Origin: an uncultured Flavobacteriaceae bacterium | GTDB taxonomy: Bacteria; Bacteroidota; Bacteroidia; Flavobacteriales; Flavobacteriaceae | DNA length: 64,000 nt | NCBI GenBank assembly: GCA_905479065.1 | Contig: CAJQLB010000002.1 | Span: forward strand, 1 to 64,000 | Direction of reading: 5' to 3' | Part shown: one piece after another, positions 17,897 to 23,160 of the stretch | How the letters are laid out: each line of letters opens with the position of its first letter | Numbering within the stretch: the first letter of the stretch is position 1 | Program-made: the position numbers and the translations under genes | The notes under the pieces: model-generated | The model's database searches: none | What the model saw: the letters and a program-made list of their open reading frames with translations, nothing else | What the model was told of the DNA's origin: nothing

Positions 17897-17969
17897 GACC
17901 AGTTAGCTCAGTTGGTAGAGCATCTCCCTTTTAAGGAGAGGGTCCTGGGTTCGAGCCCCAGACTGGTCA
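17897..17969 (+). tRNA. tRNA-Lys (anticodon TTT)
   Basis: A 73-base cloverleaf. Acceptor arm GACCAGT pairs with ACTGGTC; the anticodon stem TCTCC/GGAGA encloses loop CTTTTAA with anticodon TTT at 17930-17932; the T-arm has GTTCGAG. CCA is not encoded, as is common in this phylum. It has its own promoter and terminator. Confidence 0.97.
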
Positions 17970-17970
17970 C

Positions 17971-18025: not shown

Positions 18026-18109
18026 GCGCACGTGGCGGAATTGGTAGACGCGCTAGCTTGAGGGGTTAGTGACCATTAGGTCGTGGAAGTTCGAATCTTC
18101 TCGTGCGCA
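18026..18109 (+). tRNA. tRNA-Leu (anticodon GAG)
   Basis: An 84-base class II tRNA with a long variable arm. Acceptor GCGCACG pairs with CGTGCGC; the anticodon stem CTAGC/GTTAG (one G-T pair) encloses loop TTGAGGG, giving GAG, which reads CTC and CTT leucine codons. T-loop TTCGAAT is normal. No encoded CCA. Confidence 0.96.
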
Positions 18110-18212
18110 CTTGATAATAAATACTACGCATTCACACATTTCGATAAGCATGTTGTTTGCCTTCCTTCATTAAAGATTTTAATGTAAAGAGGCTACTTTA
18201 GATTATATGTCT

Positions 18213-18220
18213 TACTTTTG
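18213..18220 (+). promoter_or_regulatory. Possible -7 element of the carH-like gene
   Basis: TACTTTTG lies 21 bases before the chosen ATG at 18242. No TTG is seen at the proper distance, so the promoter is weak or activated. Confidence 0.35.
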
Positions 18221-18241
18221 AATTAGATAAATTTTTTGTGT

Positions 18242-19144
18242 ATGGATAACATGAAGAGTGATTTCAGTATCAAGGATTTAGAGAACATCTCTGGAATTAA
18301 AGCACATACAATAAGAATTTGGGAAAAAAGATACAAACTTTTAGAACCAGAAAGGACAGAGACAAATATCAGACACTATGGCCTTAGAAGTCTCCAAAAA
18401 CTTTTAAACGTTGCTTTTCTTAATAGTAATGGTATTAAAATATCTAAAATAGTAAAACTTTCAAATGAGGAGGTTTCAGCACATGTCCGAGAAATAGCCT
18501 CCAGAGGAAACATTGAACATCATGCAATCAATGCATTTAAAATGTCCATGTTTCATTTCGATCAGGTCTTATTTTACAAAACCTACATGAATCTCCTTGA
18601 AAGATATACTTTTAGAGAAATCTTTTATGATATTTTCATTCCGTTATTGAATGAAATGGGACTTTTGTGGCAAACAAACACTATTTCACCAGCTCACGAG
18701 CATTTTATCTCTGTTCATATCAAACAGAAAATTTTATTAAATATTGAAAAACTACAAAGTTTAGAGCCTAAACCTGCTACTAGAACTTTTGTTTTATTTC
18801 TGCCTGAAAATGAGATTCATGACATCGGTTTACTTTTTGTAAATTATGAATTAAGAAGTCGGGGTTACCACACTATTTTTTTAGGTGAAAGTATTCCTAT
18901 GGAATCGCTAAGTGATGTGTTAGAATTTTTTAATGAAATCACTTTTATTTCTTATTTTACAGTAAAACCGATTGAAAGGGAAGATGTCTTAATTTATTTA
19001 GATAACTTTAAGCAGCTGCTTCTAAAAAAAGAATCTTCAAAACTCTGGTTATTGGGGCATAAATTAGGGCTTTTACAACCCAATGATTATCCAAAAGCAA
19101 CTTACGGATTTAATTCAATTGAAAATTTAGTTAAAGAATTGTAA
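18242..19144 (+). CDS. MerR-family regulator with B12-binding domain (CarH/LitR-like)
   Basis: A 300-residue regulator. Residues 8-75 form a MerR DNA-binding domain (FSIKDLENISGIKAHTIRIW, EKRYKLLEPERTETNIR). A helical domain follows with Trp143 and Glu153-His154, exactly the Wx9EH motif of CarH; then a Rossmann-type B12 domain with ExHxxG at Glu191-Gly196, whose His193 is the expected lower cobalt ligand. CarH proteins bind adenosylcobalamin, form DNA-bound tetramers in the dark and fall apart in light, which releases carotenoid genes. It sits 54 bases upstream of crtI on the same strand. Light control of the crt genes is inference. The ATG at 18242 was preferred to a TTG two codons earlier. 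Confidence 0.88.
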   Translation: MDNMKSDFSIKDLENISGIKAHTIRIWEKRYKLLEPERTETNIRHYGLRSLQKLLNVAFLNSNGIKISKIVKLSNEEVSAHVREIASRGNIEHHAINAFKMSMFHFDQVLFYKTYMNLLERYTFREIFYDIFIPLLNEMGLLWQTNTISPAHEHFISVHIKQKILLNIEKLQSLEPKPATRTFVLFLPENEIHDIGLLFVNYELRSRGYHTIFLGESIPMESLSDVLEFFNEITFISYFTVKPIEREDVLIYLDNFKQLLLKKESSKLWLLGHKLGLLQPNDYPKATYGFNSIENLVKEL

Positions 19145-19198
19145 AATTTAGTTTCATCTCTTTTTTTTGTTTAGATTTAAATTAAATTAATTAAACAA

Positions 19199-20701
19199 AT
19201 GAGTCAATCTATACATATAATAGGATCAGGTTTTTCATCCCTTGCCGCATCATGCTACCTCGCTAAAGCTGGTTACAACGTCACAATTTTTGAAAAAAAC
19301 AACACTATTGGAGGTCGTGCACGGCAATTAAAGCGAGATGGTTTTACATTTGATATTGGACCAACCTGGTATTGGATGCCCGATGTTTTTGAACGATTTT
19401 TTTCAGATTTCAATAAATCTCCAAATGATTATTACAGTTTAGAAAAACTAAATCCAGCTTACAGTGTTTATTTTGGACAAGATGACTTTATTTTAATAGA
19501 AGATTCATTACAAAAAATATGTAACGCTTTTGAAAGAGAGGAAGAAGGAAGTTCAGTACAGTTAATGAAATTTATAAACGAGGCTAAAAGCAATTATGAT
19601 ATCGCCATAAAGGATTTGGTTTACAATCCAGGAGTTTCACCTTTTGAATTAGTAACCCCAAAAACAATTGGTAAGCTGAATCAATTTTTTAGTACCATTA
19701 AAAAAGATGTTCGAAAACAATTTAAAAATAATCGATTAGCACAAATTCTAGAATTTCCTGTTCTTTTTCTTGGGGCAAAACCTAGTGACACACCTTCATT
19801 TTATAGTTTCATGAACTATGCAGATTTTGGTTTGGGAACTTTTCATCCAAAAAATGGTATGTATGAAGTCATTCTTGGTATTGAAACACTCGCAAAATCA
19901 CTCGGTGTGATTATTAAAACAGAATCACCGATAGAACAAATTTTAGTTGACCATAAAAATGAAGTAACAGGTGTTAAATCAAATAACTTAGAATATCCGT
20001 GTGATTATGTTTTAAGCGGTGCAGATTATCATCATACTGAAACACTACTCGATAAAAAACATAGACAATATTCTGAATCTTATTGGCAATCTAAAACTTT
20101 CGCTCCTTCATCATTACTGTTTTATGTTGGGTTTGATAAAAAATTAAAAAACGTAAATCACCACACGTTGTTTTTTGATGTCGATTTCGACACTCATGCA
20201 GAAAACATATACGACAATCCAGAATGGCCAGAAAATCCTCTCTTTTATGCAAGCTTTCCGAGTATCACAGATCAATCATCAGCACCAGAACATAAAGAAG
20301 CAGGTATTTTTTTAATTCCATTAGCACCTGGTCTCACTGATACATCAGAAATACGAGAAGAATATTTTGAAAAAATAATGACACGCTTCGAAGCGCTGAC
20401 AAGTCAAAAAGTTAAAAACGATATTCTCTTTAAGGAATCCTTTTGCGTTAATGATTTTGTAAAAGACTACAATTCATACAAAGGAAATGCTTATGGCATG
20501 GCAAATACACTATTTCAAACAGCCTTTTTAAGACCTAAATTAAAAAGTAAAAAAGTAAAAAAAATGTACTTTACTGGACAGTTAACTGTTCCTGGACCTG
20601 GGGTACCGCCTGCATTAATATCAGGAAAATTAGTTTCTGAACTAATAATTAAGGATATTGTAACCAATAAAACCAAGAATTCAACATTACAACCAGTTTA
20701 A
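19199..20701 (+). CDS. crtI: Phytoene desaturase (bacterial CrtI type)
   Basis: Introduces four double bonds into phytoene, giving lycopene, at the membrane with FAD. The 500-residue protein has the N-terminal dinucleotide fold (IHIIGSGFSSLAASCYLAKA, FEKNNTIGGRARQL), the substrate region FDIGPTWYWMPDVFERFF, and the C-terminal FAD motif YFTGQLTVPGPGVPPALISG. It is the first gene of a tight crtI-crtB-crtZ-crtY operon (gaps of 3, 7 and 13 bases). I see no canonical promoter in the 54 bases upstream, so it may be read from the regulator's promoter. Confidence 0.96.
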   Translation: MSQSIHIIGSGFSSLAASCYLAKAGYNVTIFEKNNTIGGRARQLKRDGFTFDIGPTWYWMPDVFERFFSDFNKSPNDYYSLEKLNPAYSVYFGQDDFILIEDSLQKICNAFEREEEGSSVQLMKFINEAKSNYDIAIKDLVYNPGVSPFELVTPKTIGKLNQFFSTIKKDVRKQFKNNRLAQILEFPVLFLGAKPSDTPSFYSFMNYADFGLGTFHPKNGMYEVILGIETLAKSLGVIIKTESPIEQILVDHKNEVTGVKSNNLEYPCDYVLSGADYHHTETLLDKKHRQYSESYWQSKTFAPSSLLFYVGFDKKLKNVNHHTLFFDVDFDTHAENIYDNPEWPENPLFYASFPSITDQSSAPEHKEAGIFLIPLAPGLTDTSEIREEYFEKIMTRFEALTSQKVKNDILFKESFCVNDFVKDYNSYKGNAYGMANTLFQTAFLRPKLKSKKVKKMYFTGQLTVPGPGVPPALISGKLVSELIIKDIVTNKTKNSTLQPV

Positions 20702-20704
20702 AAT

Positions 20705-21544
20705 ATGAAATACATTTTTGATAACGTGTCTTACGACTGTAGCAAGACTGTGACCAAAACATATAGCACTTCTTTTTCTCTAGCTACTAAAATGCTGAGC
20801 AAATCAATACGGCAGGATATCTACAATATCTATGGATTTGTCCGTTTTGCTGATGAAATTGTTGACTCATTTCATGATTTCGACAAAAATGAATTGTTTA
20901 ACAAATTTGAAGATGATTTAAAATTAGCCATTCAAAATAAAATTAGTTTGAATCCTATTTTAAATGCGTTTCAATATACATTTCACAAATACAAAATAGA
21001 CATTTCTTTAGTAGATGCTTTTATGAAATCCATGCGGATGGATTTACATAAATCAGAATACCTAACAAATGAGGAGTACAAGGCCTATATTTATGGATCA
21101 GCTGACGTCGTTGGCCTGATGTGTTTGAAGGTTTTTGTAAATGGAAATCAAAAAAAGTACGATGATTTGCAAGAGACTGCGATGTCACTAGGTTCCGCAT
21201 TTCAAAAGGTGAACTTTTTACGAGATTTAAAAGCAGATTTTGAGGGGTTGAATAGAACTTATTTTCCCAATACAGATCTTGCAAACCTTGATGAGCTCGC
21301 AAAACAGAACATTATAAATGACATAGAAAGTGACTTTGGCAAGGGGCTTGAAGGTATCAGAAAATTACCGATGGAAGCTAAATTTGGTGTTTTTATGGCT
21401 TATAGATACTACAGCCAATTATTAAAAAAGTTAAAACGCACGCCAGCTTTAGAGATTAAAAGTGCCCGAATTAGAGTACCAAACTATAAAAAAATTGAAC
21501 TTCTAACCAGAAGCTATGTCAAATTTCAACTTAATCTTTTGTAA
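20705..21544 (+). CDS. crtB: Phytoene synthase
   Basis: Condenses two geranylgeranyl diphosphates to phytoene, the first committed carotenoid step. The 279-residue protein has the first Asp-rich motif in YGFVRFADEIVDSFHD and the second in FQKVNFLRDLKADFEGL, which hold the magnesium-diphosphate substrates. It also shows TYSTSFSLATKML and the late YRYYSQLLKKL helix. It begins three bases after crtI. The substrate-making gene (crtE) is not in the window. Confidence 0.96.
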   Translation: MKYIFDNVSYDCSKTVTKTYSTSFSLATKMLSKSIRQDIYNIYGFVRFADEIVDSFHDFDKNELFNKFEDDLKLAIQNKISLNPILNAFQYTFHKYKIDISLVDAFMKSMRMDLHKSEYLTNEEYKAYIYGSADVVGLMCLKVFVNGNQKKYDDLQETAMSLGSAFQKVNFLRDLKADFEGLNRTYFPNTDLANLDELAKQNIINDIESDFGKGLEGIRKLPMEAKFGVFMAYRYYSQLLKKLKRTPALEIKSARIRVPNYKKIELLTRSYVKFQLNLL

Positions 21545-21551
21545 TTAATTT

Positions 21552-22001
21552 ATGCATACAGTTTATTGGATATTAATATTTCTAGGCACCTTTTCGATGA
21601 TGGAGTTTATGGCATGGTTTACGCACAAATTTATCATGCATGGCTTTTTGTGGCACTTACACAAAGACCATCACCAAAAAGATCACGATAACTGGTTTGA
21701 AAGAAATGACTTTTTCTTTCTGTTTTATGCCGTTGTTAGCATGACTTGTTTCTATTTAGCGAGTTATGAATTAATTTGGTTTTTCTTACCTATTGGACTA
21801 GGTATTCTTGCATACGGTATTGCCTATTTTACAGTCCATGACATATTTATTCACCAACGTTTTAAAATGTTTAGAAAAGCCAATAATTGGTATGCTAAAG
21901 GTGTAAGACGAGCCCATAAAATTCACCACAAACACAGAGGTAAAGAAAAAAGTGAAAATTTTGGAATGCTAGTGGTCCCATTTAAGTATTTCAAAAAATA
22001 A
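21552..22001 (+). CDS. crtZ: Beta-carotene 3-hydroxylase (CrtZ type)
   Basis: A 149-residue integral membrane di-iron hydroxylase that adds 3-hydroxyls to beta-carotene rings, giving cryptoxanthin and zeaxanthin. All His clusters are present: HKFIMHG, HLHKDHHQKDH, HDIFIHQRF and RAHKIHHKHRG, among membrane helices. It has the length of bacterial CrtZ. It lies between crtB and crtY, so zeaxanthin is the expected product. Confidence 0.95.
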   Translation: MHTVYWILIFLGTFSMMEFMAWFTHKFIMHGFLWHLHKDHHQKDHDNWFERNDFFFLFYAVVSMTCFYLASYELIWFFLPIGLGILAYGIAYFTVHDIFIHQRFKMFRKANNWYAKGVRRAHKIHHKHRGKEKSENFGMLVVPFKYFKK

Positions 22002-22014
22002 ATCTTTAAATTTT

Positions 22015-23160
22015 ATGAACCACTCCCACTTCGATTATGTCATTGTAGGAAATGGGCTTGCAGGTTTACAATTAGCTTTAAAACTGGCGTCTGATTCATA
22101 TTTTGATGGAGTTAAAATTGCATTAATTGACCCATTATCAAAAACCAAAAATGATAAAACATGGAGCTTTTGGGAAAAACATTCAACACCTTGGGATAAC
22201 CTTACTGAAAAAGAATGGCCACAAGCATCCTTTATTACAAAAAGTAAAGAAATAAGCTTAAACCTTCATCCATATCGCTACAAAACAATTCGCTCCATCG
22301 ACTTTTACAAGTTCTCAAGATCAGTACTCAGTCAAAAAAGTAATGTGATGTTTATTACAGATACAGTTACATCAATACAAGAAACTATTGATCTTGTGCA
22401 AATTACTACCAAAAGCGAAACATATACCTCAGCACATGTTTTTGATAGTAGAGTTCCAGATTCATTTAATAATTTAGAGAACAAATCTATTCGCCTCACA
22501 CAGCATTTTAAAGGTTATGTTATTGACGTGAGTTCAAATGTTTTTAACGATAATAACCTCGTGATGATGGATTATCGACTTAAAGATGGCGGGCAAACGA
22601 CCTTTATGTATGTCCTGCCATTTTCAAAAAGAAAAGCACTTATTGAGTTTACCTATTTTACAGAACAACTTGTTGAAGAATCGGTTTACGATACATTCAT
22701 TAAAACCTATATTAAGGACTATTTAAAGATAGATAAATATCATATCACAGAAACCGAAACTGGACAAATACCTATGTCTACGTTTCGCTTTGAAAAATTC
22801 AATACCTCAAAAATCACCAAAATAGGAACAGGTGGTGGTTGGGTAAAAGCGTCAACTGGTTACTCATTTAAACATACTGAGAAAAAGGTGACACAAATTA
22901 TCAACAATATAAAATTAAACAGAATACCCTCCTTCAAATTATTCAAGAGTAAATATAAATTTTATGATAAGGTCTTTCTTAAAGTATTAAAAGATGAAAA
23001 TTCGAAAGGCGAATGGGTGTTTCAACAACTTTACAGTAAAAATTCAATACAATCGATTTTTAGATTTCTTGATGAAGAGTCAACGCTGATTGATGAGCTT
23101 AAAATTATGTGGTCCTTATTATCATGGCGATTTTTAAAAGCCTTTTTTAAGACGCTGTAA
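22015..23160 (+). CDS. crtY: Lycopene beta-cyclase (CrtY type)
   Basis: Turns the ends of lycopene into beta rings. The 381-residue protein has the N-terminal FAD-binding fold (FDYVIVGNGLAGLQLALKLA), the conserved DKTWSFWEKHSTPWDNL, a middle strand DSRVPDSFNN and the C-terminal GTGGGWVKASTGYSFKHTE. It closes the crt operon and its last 14 bases overlap the 3' end of the convergent thioredoxin gene. Confidence 0.94.
   Translation: MNHSHFDYVIVGNGLAGLQLALKLASDSYFDGVKIALIDPLSKTKNDKTWSFWEKHSTPWDNLTEKEWPQASFITKSKEISLNLHPYRYKTIRSIDFYKFSRSVLSQKSNVMFITDTVTSIQETIDLVQITTKSETYTSAHVFDSRVPDSFNNLENKSIRLTQHFKGYVIDVSSNVFNDNNLVMMDYRLKDGGQTTFMYVLPFSKRKALIEFTYFTEQLVEESVYDTFIKTYIKDYLKIDKYHITETETGQIPMSTFRFEKFNTSKITKIGTGGGWVKASTGYSFKHTEKKVTQIINNIKLNRIPSFKLFKSKYKFYDKVFLKVLKDENSKGEWVFQQLYSKNSIQSIFRFLDEESTLIDELKIMWSLLSWRFLKAFFKTL

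Follow-up and report, generated by a model that had tools for sequence, protein, structure and literature searches.

What does a MerR-type regulator at the head of a carotenoid operon recognize in DNA, and how far does its control extend? The question is raised by a locus of an uncultured Flavobacteriaceae bacterium (GenBank assembly GCA_905479065.1, contig CAJQLB010000002.1), of which we analysed positions 1 to 64,000, the 64,000-nucleotide stretch termed here the window; in it a 300-residue MerR/CarH-like protein (18242..19144, + strand) is encoded ahead of crtI, crtB, crtZ and crtY. An earlier sequence-only reading had taken this protein for a B12 photoreceptor-type regulator of the operon and had proposed a search for its operator repeat. 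Such an inverted repeat was found in the gap between merR and crtI at 19167..19198 (+ strand), where both arms of the 32-bp sequence TTGTTTA-N18-TAAACAA are perfect and the right arm directly abuts the crtI ATG, and at four more places in the genome. This operator is a new element relative to that reading, and it is tied to the regulator. What was computed directly is the repeat itself, with the spacer length that it favours, its association with the regulator across genomes and its occurrence at merR, crtI, rhodopsin and fasciclin genes, together with the CarH fold of the protein; that the regulator binds the repeat, represses from it, has adenosylcobalamin (AdoCbl) as its ligand and is released by light is our prediction from analogy. 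We consider it probable that the protein is a flavobacterial CarH-type dark repressor, responsive to AdoCbl and light, of a set of light-responsive genes, proteorhodopsin among them, read through the 32-bp inverted repeat.

The length of the repeat is among its defining features. When the genome was searched with slightly longer arms, allowing spacers of 14 to 20, five places were retrieved, all of 32 bp, and the reversed-pattern control gave 0; with seven-letter arms and spacers of 3 to 33, five of the 11 places in this genome (G000, which contains the window; G and L numbers denote the family genomes and loci compared) had that length. In five genomes together, 34 of the 75 matches listed were of 32 bp, against 1.4 per other length (seven of 33 bp, four of 31 bp), a count that leans to 32 bp because the genomes other than G000 were picked for richness in 32-bp sites, and that takes in 75 of the 95 forward matches from six genomes searched (G109 and one match of G179 are missing). 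Allowing up to three mismatches, the window held 27 matches to the pattern where 20.7 were expected, which is no enrichment, and therefore only near-perfect copies carry meaning. Among close relatives the merR-crtI gap holds a strongly conserved block, TTGTTTAACTTTTnnnTATATTTGTTAAACAA (30 loci compared, less L006, which was not oriented), and in 25 of 28 relatives at least 13 of the 14 arm letters of the repeat are matched in the gap. The right arm begins, in relatives, directly after the flavobacterial -7 element, of consensus TAnnTTTG (PMC3587595), and the half-site TAAACA agrees with TnnACA, the repeat of CarH (PMC9304148), with the arms inverted. A single case, the gap of L020 (G051), has the same change in both arms in mirror image (GTCTA / TAGAC; 11 of 14), as if the half-sites had changed together.

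A survey of 199 genomes of the family relates the repeat to the regulator. A homologue of the regulator (E-value 1e-10 or better) was present in 160 of them, close in 149 (1e-60 or better) and distant in 11, and 427 forward matches to the repeat were counted in total, with the reversed-letter pattern as control. The genomes with a close homologue contained 399 exact sites against 32 for the control, with at least one site in 140; those with a distant homologue only, seven against one; and the 39 without a homologue, 21 against 10. Sites per genome fall from 2.7 with the regulator to 0.5 without it (Mann-Whitney p 2e-14, a value not corrected for the relatedness of the genomes). A chance origin of the repeat is rejected by the reversed control, the spacing and this co-occurrence.

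The regulator gene itself carries the repeat in relatives. We compared titled loci, the best 80 of 589 loci from named records, which overlap in part with the family genomes so that the two sets are not independent. In 69 of the 80, a copy of the form TTGTTTA-N18-TGAACAA lies across the merR start codon, always at position -24 (61 with 13 or 14 arm letters, eight with 12). Scores of at least 13 near the merR start were reached at spacer 18 by 68 loci, and at 20 other spacers by 0 to 22, with none at 13 of these spacers. The sequence TTTGTTTA occurs 5' of merR in 74 titled loci and at one fixed distance in 65, its place being fixed because the repeat is completed within the coding start, where the arm TGAACAA is the end of ATG plus AAC AA; proteins beginning Met-Asn-Asn number 59, and seven more have Asn-Asn after GTG. 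A copy placed in this way in so many relatives makes it likely that the regulator controls its own gene there. Among the 76 titled loci in which crtI follows directly, 24 have a second site before crtI, 14 have a roomy gap scoring below 13, and 38 have a gap too short for a second site, so that in these last the merR operator could serve the entire operon. The corresponding place in the window is 18218..18249 (+ strand), decayed to 8 of 14 letters; a -7-type element (TAnnTTTG) of the presumed merR promoter, TACTTTTG, lies at 18213..18220 (+ strand), 21 nucleotides before the ATG, and is identical in letters and place in G199. This congener, one of three other genomes of the genus, keeps the merR-start copy (13 of 14) as well as a perfect crtI copy with a good -7 element. 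It has two copies of the regulator, on C62 and C112 (L280, L281), 75% and 59% identical to the window protein, of which only the first leaves room for a second operator before crtI. At position 5501 of L277 (Flavobacterium granuli), a perfect right arm TAAACAA changes the ATG to ATA, so that translation either begins at a rare codon or starts elsewhere.

The sequence-only reading had named the crt operon as target, which does carry the repeat; this reach was drawn too narrowly, as the repeat also occurs at non-carotenoid genes. Other copies in this genome precede the genes of two fasciclin-domain proteins (a tandem pair at C2:118144 and 118185, and one at C3:134899; Fasciclin E-values 1e-67 and 2e-33) and, at C8:53839, that of a 259-residue membrane protein adjoining blh and rhodopsin. 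The gene for the latter (L035:3962-4741, G000:C8), with the repeat 90 nucleotides 5', is flanked by dnaK-like and blh-rhodopsin genes, and its product gave no Pfam or NCBIfam match. We classed 74 distinct sites (loci L040-L103 and L145-L159, of the 427 forward matches), a non-random set that omits most crtI-side sites and includes some from genomes without the regulator. Fasciclin genes adjoin 24 of them, 16 shared with mnmA; five lie by htpG, two of these shared with a TetR-like gene; four each by crtI, a 75-residue protein and GLPGLI-like genes; three by SRPBCC-like genes; two by GHMP kinase genes; and one each by a ketolase-like gene and in a rhodopsin/blh promoter. Two are inside a long open reading frame (ORF), and the remaining 24 have no recurring class or no near gene. 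These classes were set by short custom motifs, the GLPGLI, SRPBCC, GHMP and TetR assignments being partial-sequence matches below curated cut-offs, and the genes called mnmA, htpG and ketolase are presumably such from their motifs. Fasciclin genes divergent from the mnmA-like gene carry two repeats 41-43 bp apart (G000:C2:118144-118216, L057, L070, L090). Identity of the fasciclins with AstaP-type carotenoproteins was considered and set aside as a lead only: the single-domain protein matched TGFBI at 7e-35 and another fasciclin at 1e-30, more closely than AstaP (3e-14).

Rhodopsin promoters were scored over the 150 bp before the start at 46 of 53 places listed, 38 in genomes carrying the regulator and eight in non-carriers; left out were L116 and L117 (no ORF with the motif), G185 and G067 (short upstream DNA), G104 and G045 (weak matches), and G055. 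At least 13 of the 14 arm letters are present in 24 of the 38 carriers and in two of the eight non-carriers. Spacers other than 18 give a mean best score of 10.5, and with 20 such spacers taken together nine carriers and four non-carriers reach 13. In 18 of the 24 high-scoring carriers the site ends 13-24 nucleotides before the start. Perfect copies occur in the rhodopsin promoter of G056 and between rhodopsin and blh in G034. A 2013 paper describes a housekeeping promoter consensus before the rhodopsin gene of Dokdonia MED134 and not of PRO95 (PMC3587595). Among the literature matches listed on light and proteorhodopsin-bearing flavobacteria, no direct regulator of the rhodopsin gene is named; those listed, which mostly lie outside subscription journals, likewise contained no MerR control of proteorhodopsin, no flavobacterial CarH protein and no fasciclin genes in a CarH-type regulon.

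The protein itself has the architecture of the B12 photoreceptors. A MerR winged helix-turn-helix domain (residues 8-74; PF13411, 4e-13) is followed by a four-helix B12-binding_2 domain (97-163) with GxxWx9EH, and by a Rossmann half (about 180-300) with ExHxxG. The B12-binding_2 family PF02607 is matched at 33 bits against a cut-off of 23, and in 35 of 35 aligned members. The two motifs described in the sequence-only reading as Wx9EH and ExHxxG are present as given, with Trp143, Glu153-His154 and Glu191-Ile-His193-Asp-Ile-Gly196 counted from Met1 at 18242. In 57 distinct family sequences, the window protein included (60 homologue rows minus three same-genome repeats), Gly140, Trp143, Glu153, Glu191, His193 and Gly196 are invariant and His154 is found in 54; the patterns GxxWx9EH and [DE]xHxxG are kept in 80 of 80 titled loci. 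Being thus invariant or nearly so, these motifs are not due to chance. The recognition helix RxWE[RK]RY is present as well, with R25, W27, E28, R30 and Y31 in all 57 sequences. The closest titled relatives, among the best 80 of 589, are from Algibacter, itself a member of the Flavobacteriaceae, Confluentibacter and Flavivirga. Three loci (L256, L257, L261) are metagenome-assembled records titled Klebsiella pneumoniae, Rhizobium and Bifidobacterium breve, and are probably mislabelled bins.

An AlphaFold2 model built from 35 window and locus sequences (mean predicted local distance difference test score 89) gave as its top Foldseek match the AdoCbl- and DNA-bound CarH of Thermus, 5c8e (1e-13). 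VIA-align superposed 196 residues on the CarH B12 domain (Z 20.2, root-mean-square deviation 2.5), in a tie with a photocobilin (Z 20.1) and CtMerR (Z 19.6). Because these score above other corrinoid proteins (methionine synthase, AppA and AerR, Z 16 to 17), the modelled fold is that of the B12 photoreceptors. Thermus thermophilus CarH/LitR (PDB 5c8d, 5c8e, 3whp), the best match by both sequence and Foldseek, shares the MerR domain, the four-helix bundle with Wx9EH and the Rossmann half with ExHxxG at 17-19% identity by structure; it differs in possessing the GG pair, a Gly in GxxH and a His after the Trp, where the window protein lacks GG and has Asn and Gln. Known CarH operators are tandem 11-bp direct repeats, whereas the operator here is a 32-bp inverted repeat, and unlike that of Thermus the regulon seems to extend to rhodopsin and fasciclins. 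CtMerR of Chloracidobacterium (PDB 8jbs, 8jbt) and the photocobilins (8j2w) are B12 photoreceptors with the full signature (PMC11796333), including the GxxH in which our protein has Asn for Gly; photocobilins reportedly have a bilin domain in place of the MerR domain. MliR of Bizionia argentinensis is also a MerR protein of marine Bacteroidetes; its identity with ours was rejected, as it reportedly has no effector domain and a role in iron regulation.

Use of B12 by the regulator is plausible from gene content, because this genome encodes an adenosyltransferase and two other B12-binding proteins, and because the adenosyltransferase family PF01923 goes with the regulator (156 of 160 carriers, 28 of 39 others; p 3e-6), an association that genome size and completeness may partly explain. 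A CobA-type adenosyltransferase (PF02572) was found in none of the four carriers that lack PF01923. From 63669 to the end of the window (G000:C2:63669-64016) runs a B12-binding domain within a 723-residue frame, by its size probably a methylmalonyl-CoA mutase. The window contained no B12 riboswitch, Rfam at gathering threshold returning three tRNAs only. A tRNA-Lys (17897-17970) and a tRNA-Leu (18026-18110) lie directly 5' of merR, and a tRNA-Leu is likewise 5' of merR in many close relatives.

The order of the operon genes, all on the + strand, is as the sequence-only reading had it, and Pfam and NCBIfam matches bear it out: crtI, phytoene desaturase (19199..20701; 716.9 bits against a cut-off of 640); crtB, phytoene synthase (20705..21544; SQS_PSY 1e-48); a crtZ-like beta-carotene hydroxylase (21552..22001; FA_hydroxylase fold, named from context); and crtY, lycopene beta-cyclase (22015..23160; Lycopene_cycl 5e-46). 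The merR frame, running from the ATG at 18242 to a stop ending at 19144, is recognized by ORF, Pfam and fold, and its distance of 54 bases from crtI (19145-19198) agrees with the ORF coordinates. Zeaxanthin as product is consistent with the failure to find the CruF family PF04240 in this genome (2.4 Mb, 48 contigs, 97.9% complete), and stays putative, as the NCBIfam model matched by crtI bears the name phytoene desaturase/3,4-desaturase.

The CarH proteins described in PMC9304148 are repressors, bound to DNA in the dark with AdoCbl and released in light. By this analogy, and from the fit of TAAACA to TnnACA, the retained RxWE[RK]RY and the place of the right arm just after the -7 element, we infer a similar cycle here. 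In the dark, AdoCbl would be held between the helical bundle and the Rossmann domain, and the AdoCbl-bound regulator would sit on TTGTTTA-N18-TAAACAA over the crtI core promoter and block transcription of crtIBZY, a role that the position of the right arm suits; in light, splitting of the Co-C bond would dissociate the oligomer and allow expression. The same protein would act on the same repeat before the fasciclin-domain genes and the membrane protein gene next to blh, and at the proteorhodopsin repeat, degenerate here and perfect in several relatives.

Several observations weigh against a CarH-type dark repressor responsive to AdoCbl and light, and some of them favour other explanations. The protein deviates from the B12 motif D/ExHx2G/Px41SxT/Vx22-27GG (PMC9304148), in that the second Gly of GG is gone in 56 of 57 sequences (G272 being present in all 57), and in the SxT/V part S237 occurs in 52 and Phe at the third position in 51. 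Of the signature GxxW, EH, GxxH, GxxxP (PMC11796333) three of four elements are present (G140xxW143, E153H154, G215xxxP219), the glycine of GxxH being Asn190 here and Gly in only five of 57. The residue after the Trp is Gln144 (Gln in 54 of 57, His in two), where the His of Thermus CarH, common and not universal among CarH proteins, is the upper ligand in the light state. PF02310 matched neither the window protein nor any of 35 members, and the NCBIfam CarH model scores 64.5 bits against a cut-off of 400, though it is the best of the library. Two carriers, G008 and G064 (both 99% complete; four and three repeat copies), have neither PF01923 nor PF02572, so that some carriers may import the coenzyme or do without it. 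Of the earlier interpretation, then, a CarH-fold regulator controlling the crt operon is borne out by operator and fold, while its B12 and light marks proved incomplete at GG, GxxH and the post-Trp His. These losses, with the two near-complete genomes, could mean that the same regulator serves the same operator and regulon without being an AdoCbl photoreceptor, either free of B12 or sensing another ligand (redox state, singlet oxygen, a carotenoid or retinal precursor), its fold a scaffold. CarA of Myxococcus xanthus, a CarH-type crt repressor with the B12 fold, retains the B12 motif and yet acts independently of B12, so the fold can work without it (PMC9304148). The Trp of Wx9EH is missing from CarA, however, while all 57 sequences of the present family keep this Trp, the Glu and the ligand His, and 54 keep the His of the motif; moreover, the adenosyltransferase accompanies the regulator (genome size and completeness may contribute); we regard this alternative as unlikely, if still one to be reckoned with.

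On the side of the DNA, the element TAAATTAA at 19183..19190 (+ strand) is a decayed counterpart of the -7 element, TAnnTTTG being found at this place in 22 of 24 titled relatives with a gap site; the merR-start copy is lost in the window, where the protein begins Met-Asp-Asn-Met; and a triple tandem of the CarH operator nnnnTnnACAn, with up to one mismatch, was not found in the window. At rhodopsin, the contrast between carriers and non-carriers is weak (p 0.06), 14 of 38 carriers score below 13, and the site of this genome, though in the right place (22 nucleotides), scores 12 of 14 (shuffle p 0.035). Many MerR proteins activate, and a TTG is expected 17-23 nucleotides before a -7 element. 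A TTG so placed accompanies only three of 23 crtI-gap -7 elements in titled loci, so these promoters may need help, and the protein might be a classical activator whose action light or B12 switches. We think this quite improbable, given that the right arm directly after the -7 element and the covered start codon at merR are blocking positions, and that the CarH proteins described in PMC9304148 repress. Nine close carriers have no exact site, and sites do occur in 12 of the 39 genomes in which no homologue was detected, seven of these 12 being 90% complete or more and five below 90%. Among them are G180 (99% complete, three sites), G079 (81%, seven sites) and the congener G197 (93%), with one site before a fasciclin gene. 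Such genomes would be expected if the repeat belonged to a different, co-occurring transcription factor and the MerR protein had another site. Against this stand the copies that cover the merR start codon (69 of 80 loci) or lie in the merR-crtI gap (24 of 76), the fall from 2.7 to 0.5 sites per genome, the fit of the half-site to CarH, and the position inside a gene of the G059 site, one of the 12; this explanation seems to us the least probable of those weighed here.

Returning to the CarH-type dark repressor, its extension to the family at large is more tentative, with chances that we judge nearly balanced: a B12-type photoreceptor would directly control proteorhodopsin, co-repressing in the dark the genes for carotenoid, rhodopsin (with blh where the promoter is shared), fasciclin and other proteins, with its own operator in its start codon. 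A 2025 paper on Nonlabens spongiae places a MerR gene first in the crt cluster (PMC11855829); the light-induced carotenoids of Chryseobacterium lacus, in which the authors of that study found no car or lit gene (PMC7064467), are neutral here. The effects of light on proteorhodopsin-bearing marine flavobacteria have been much studied, and with a defined operator and a candidate regulator direct regulation of the rhodopsin gene becomes testable. If the proposal is true, a CarH-type protein would have a second mode of reading DNA, the supply of vitamin B12 may be tied to the use of light in the sea, and one switch may run much of the light response of these related bacteria.

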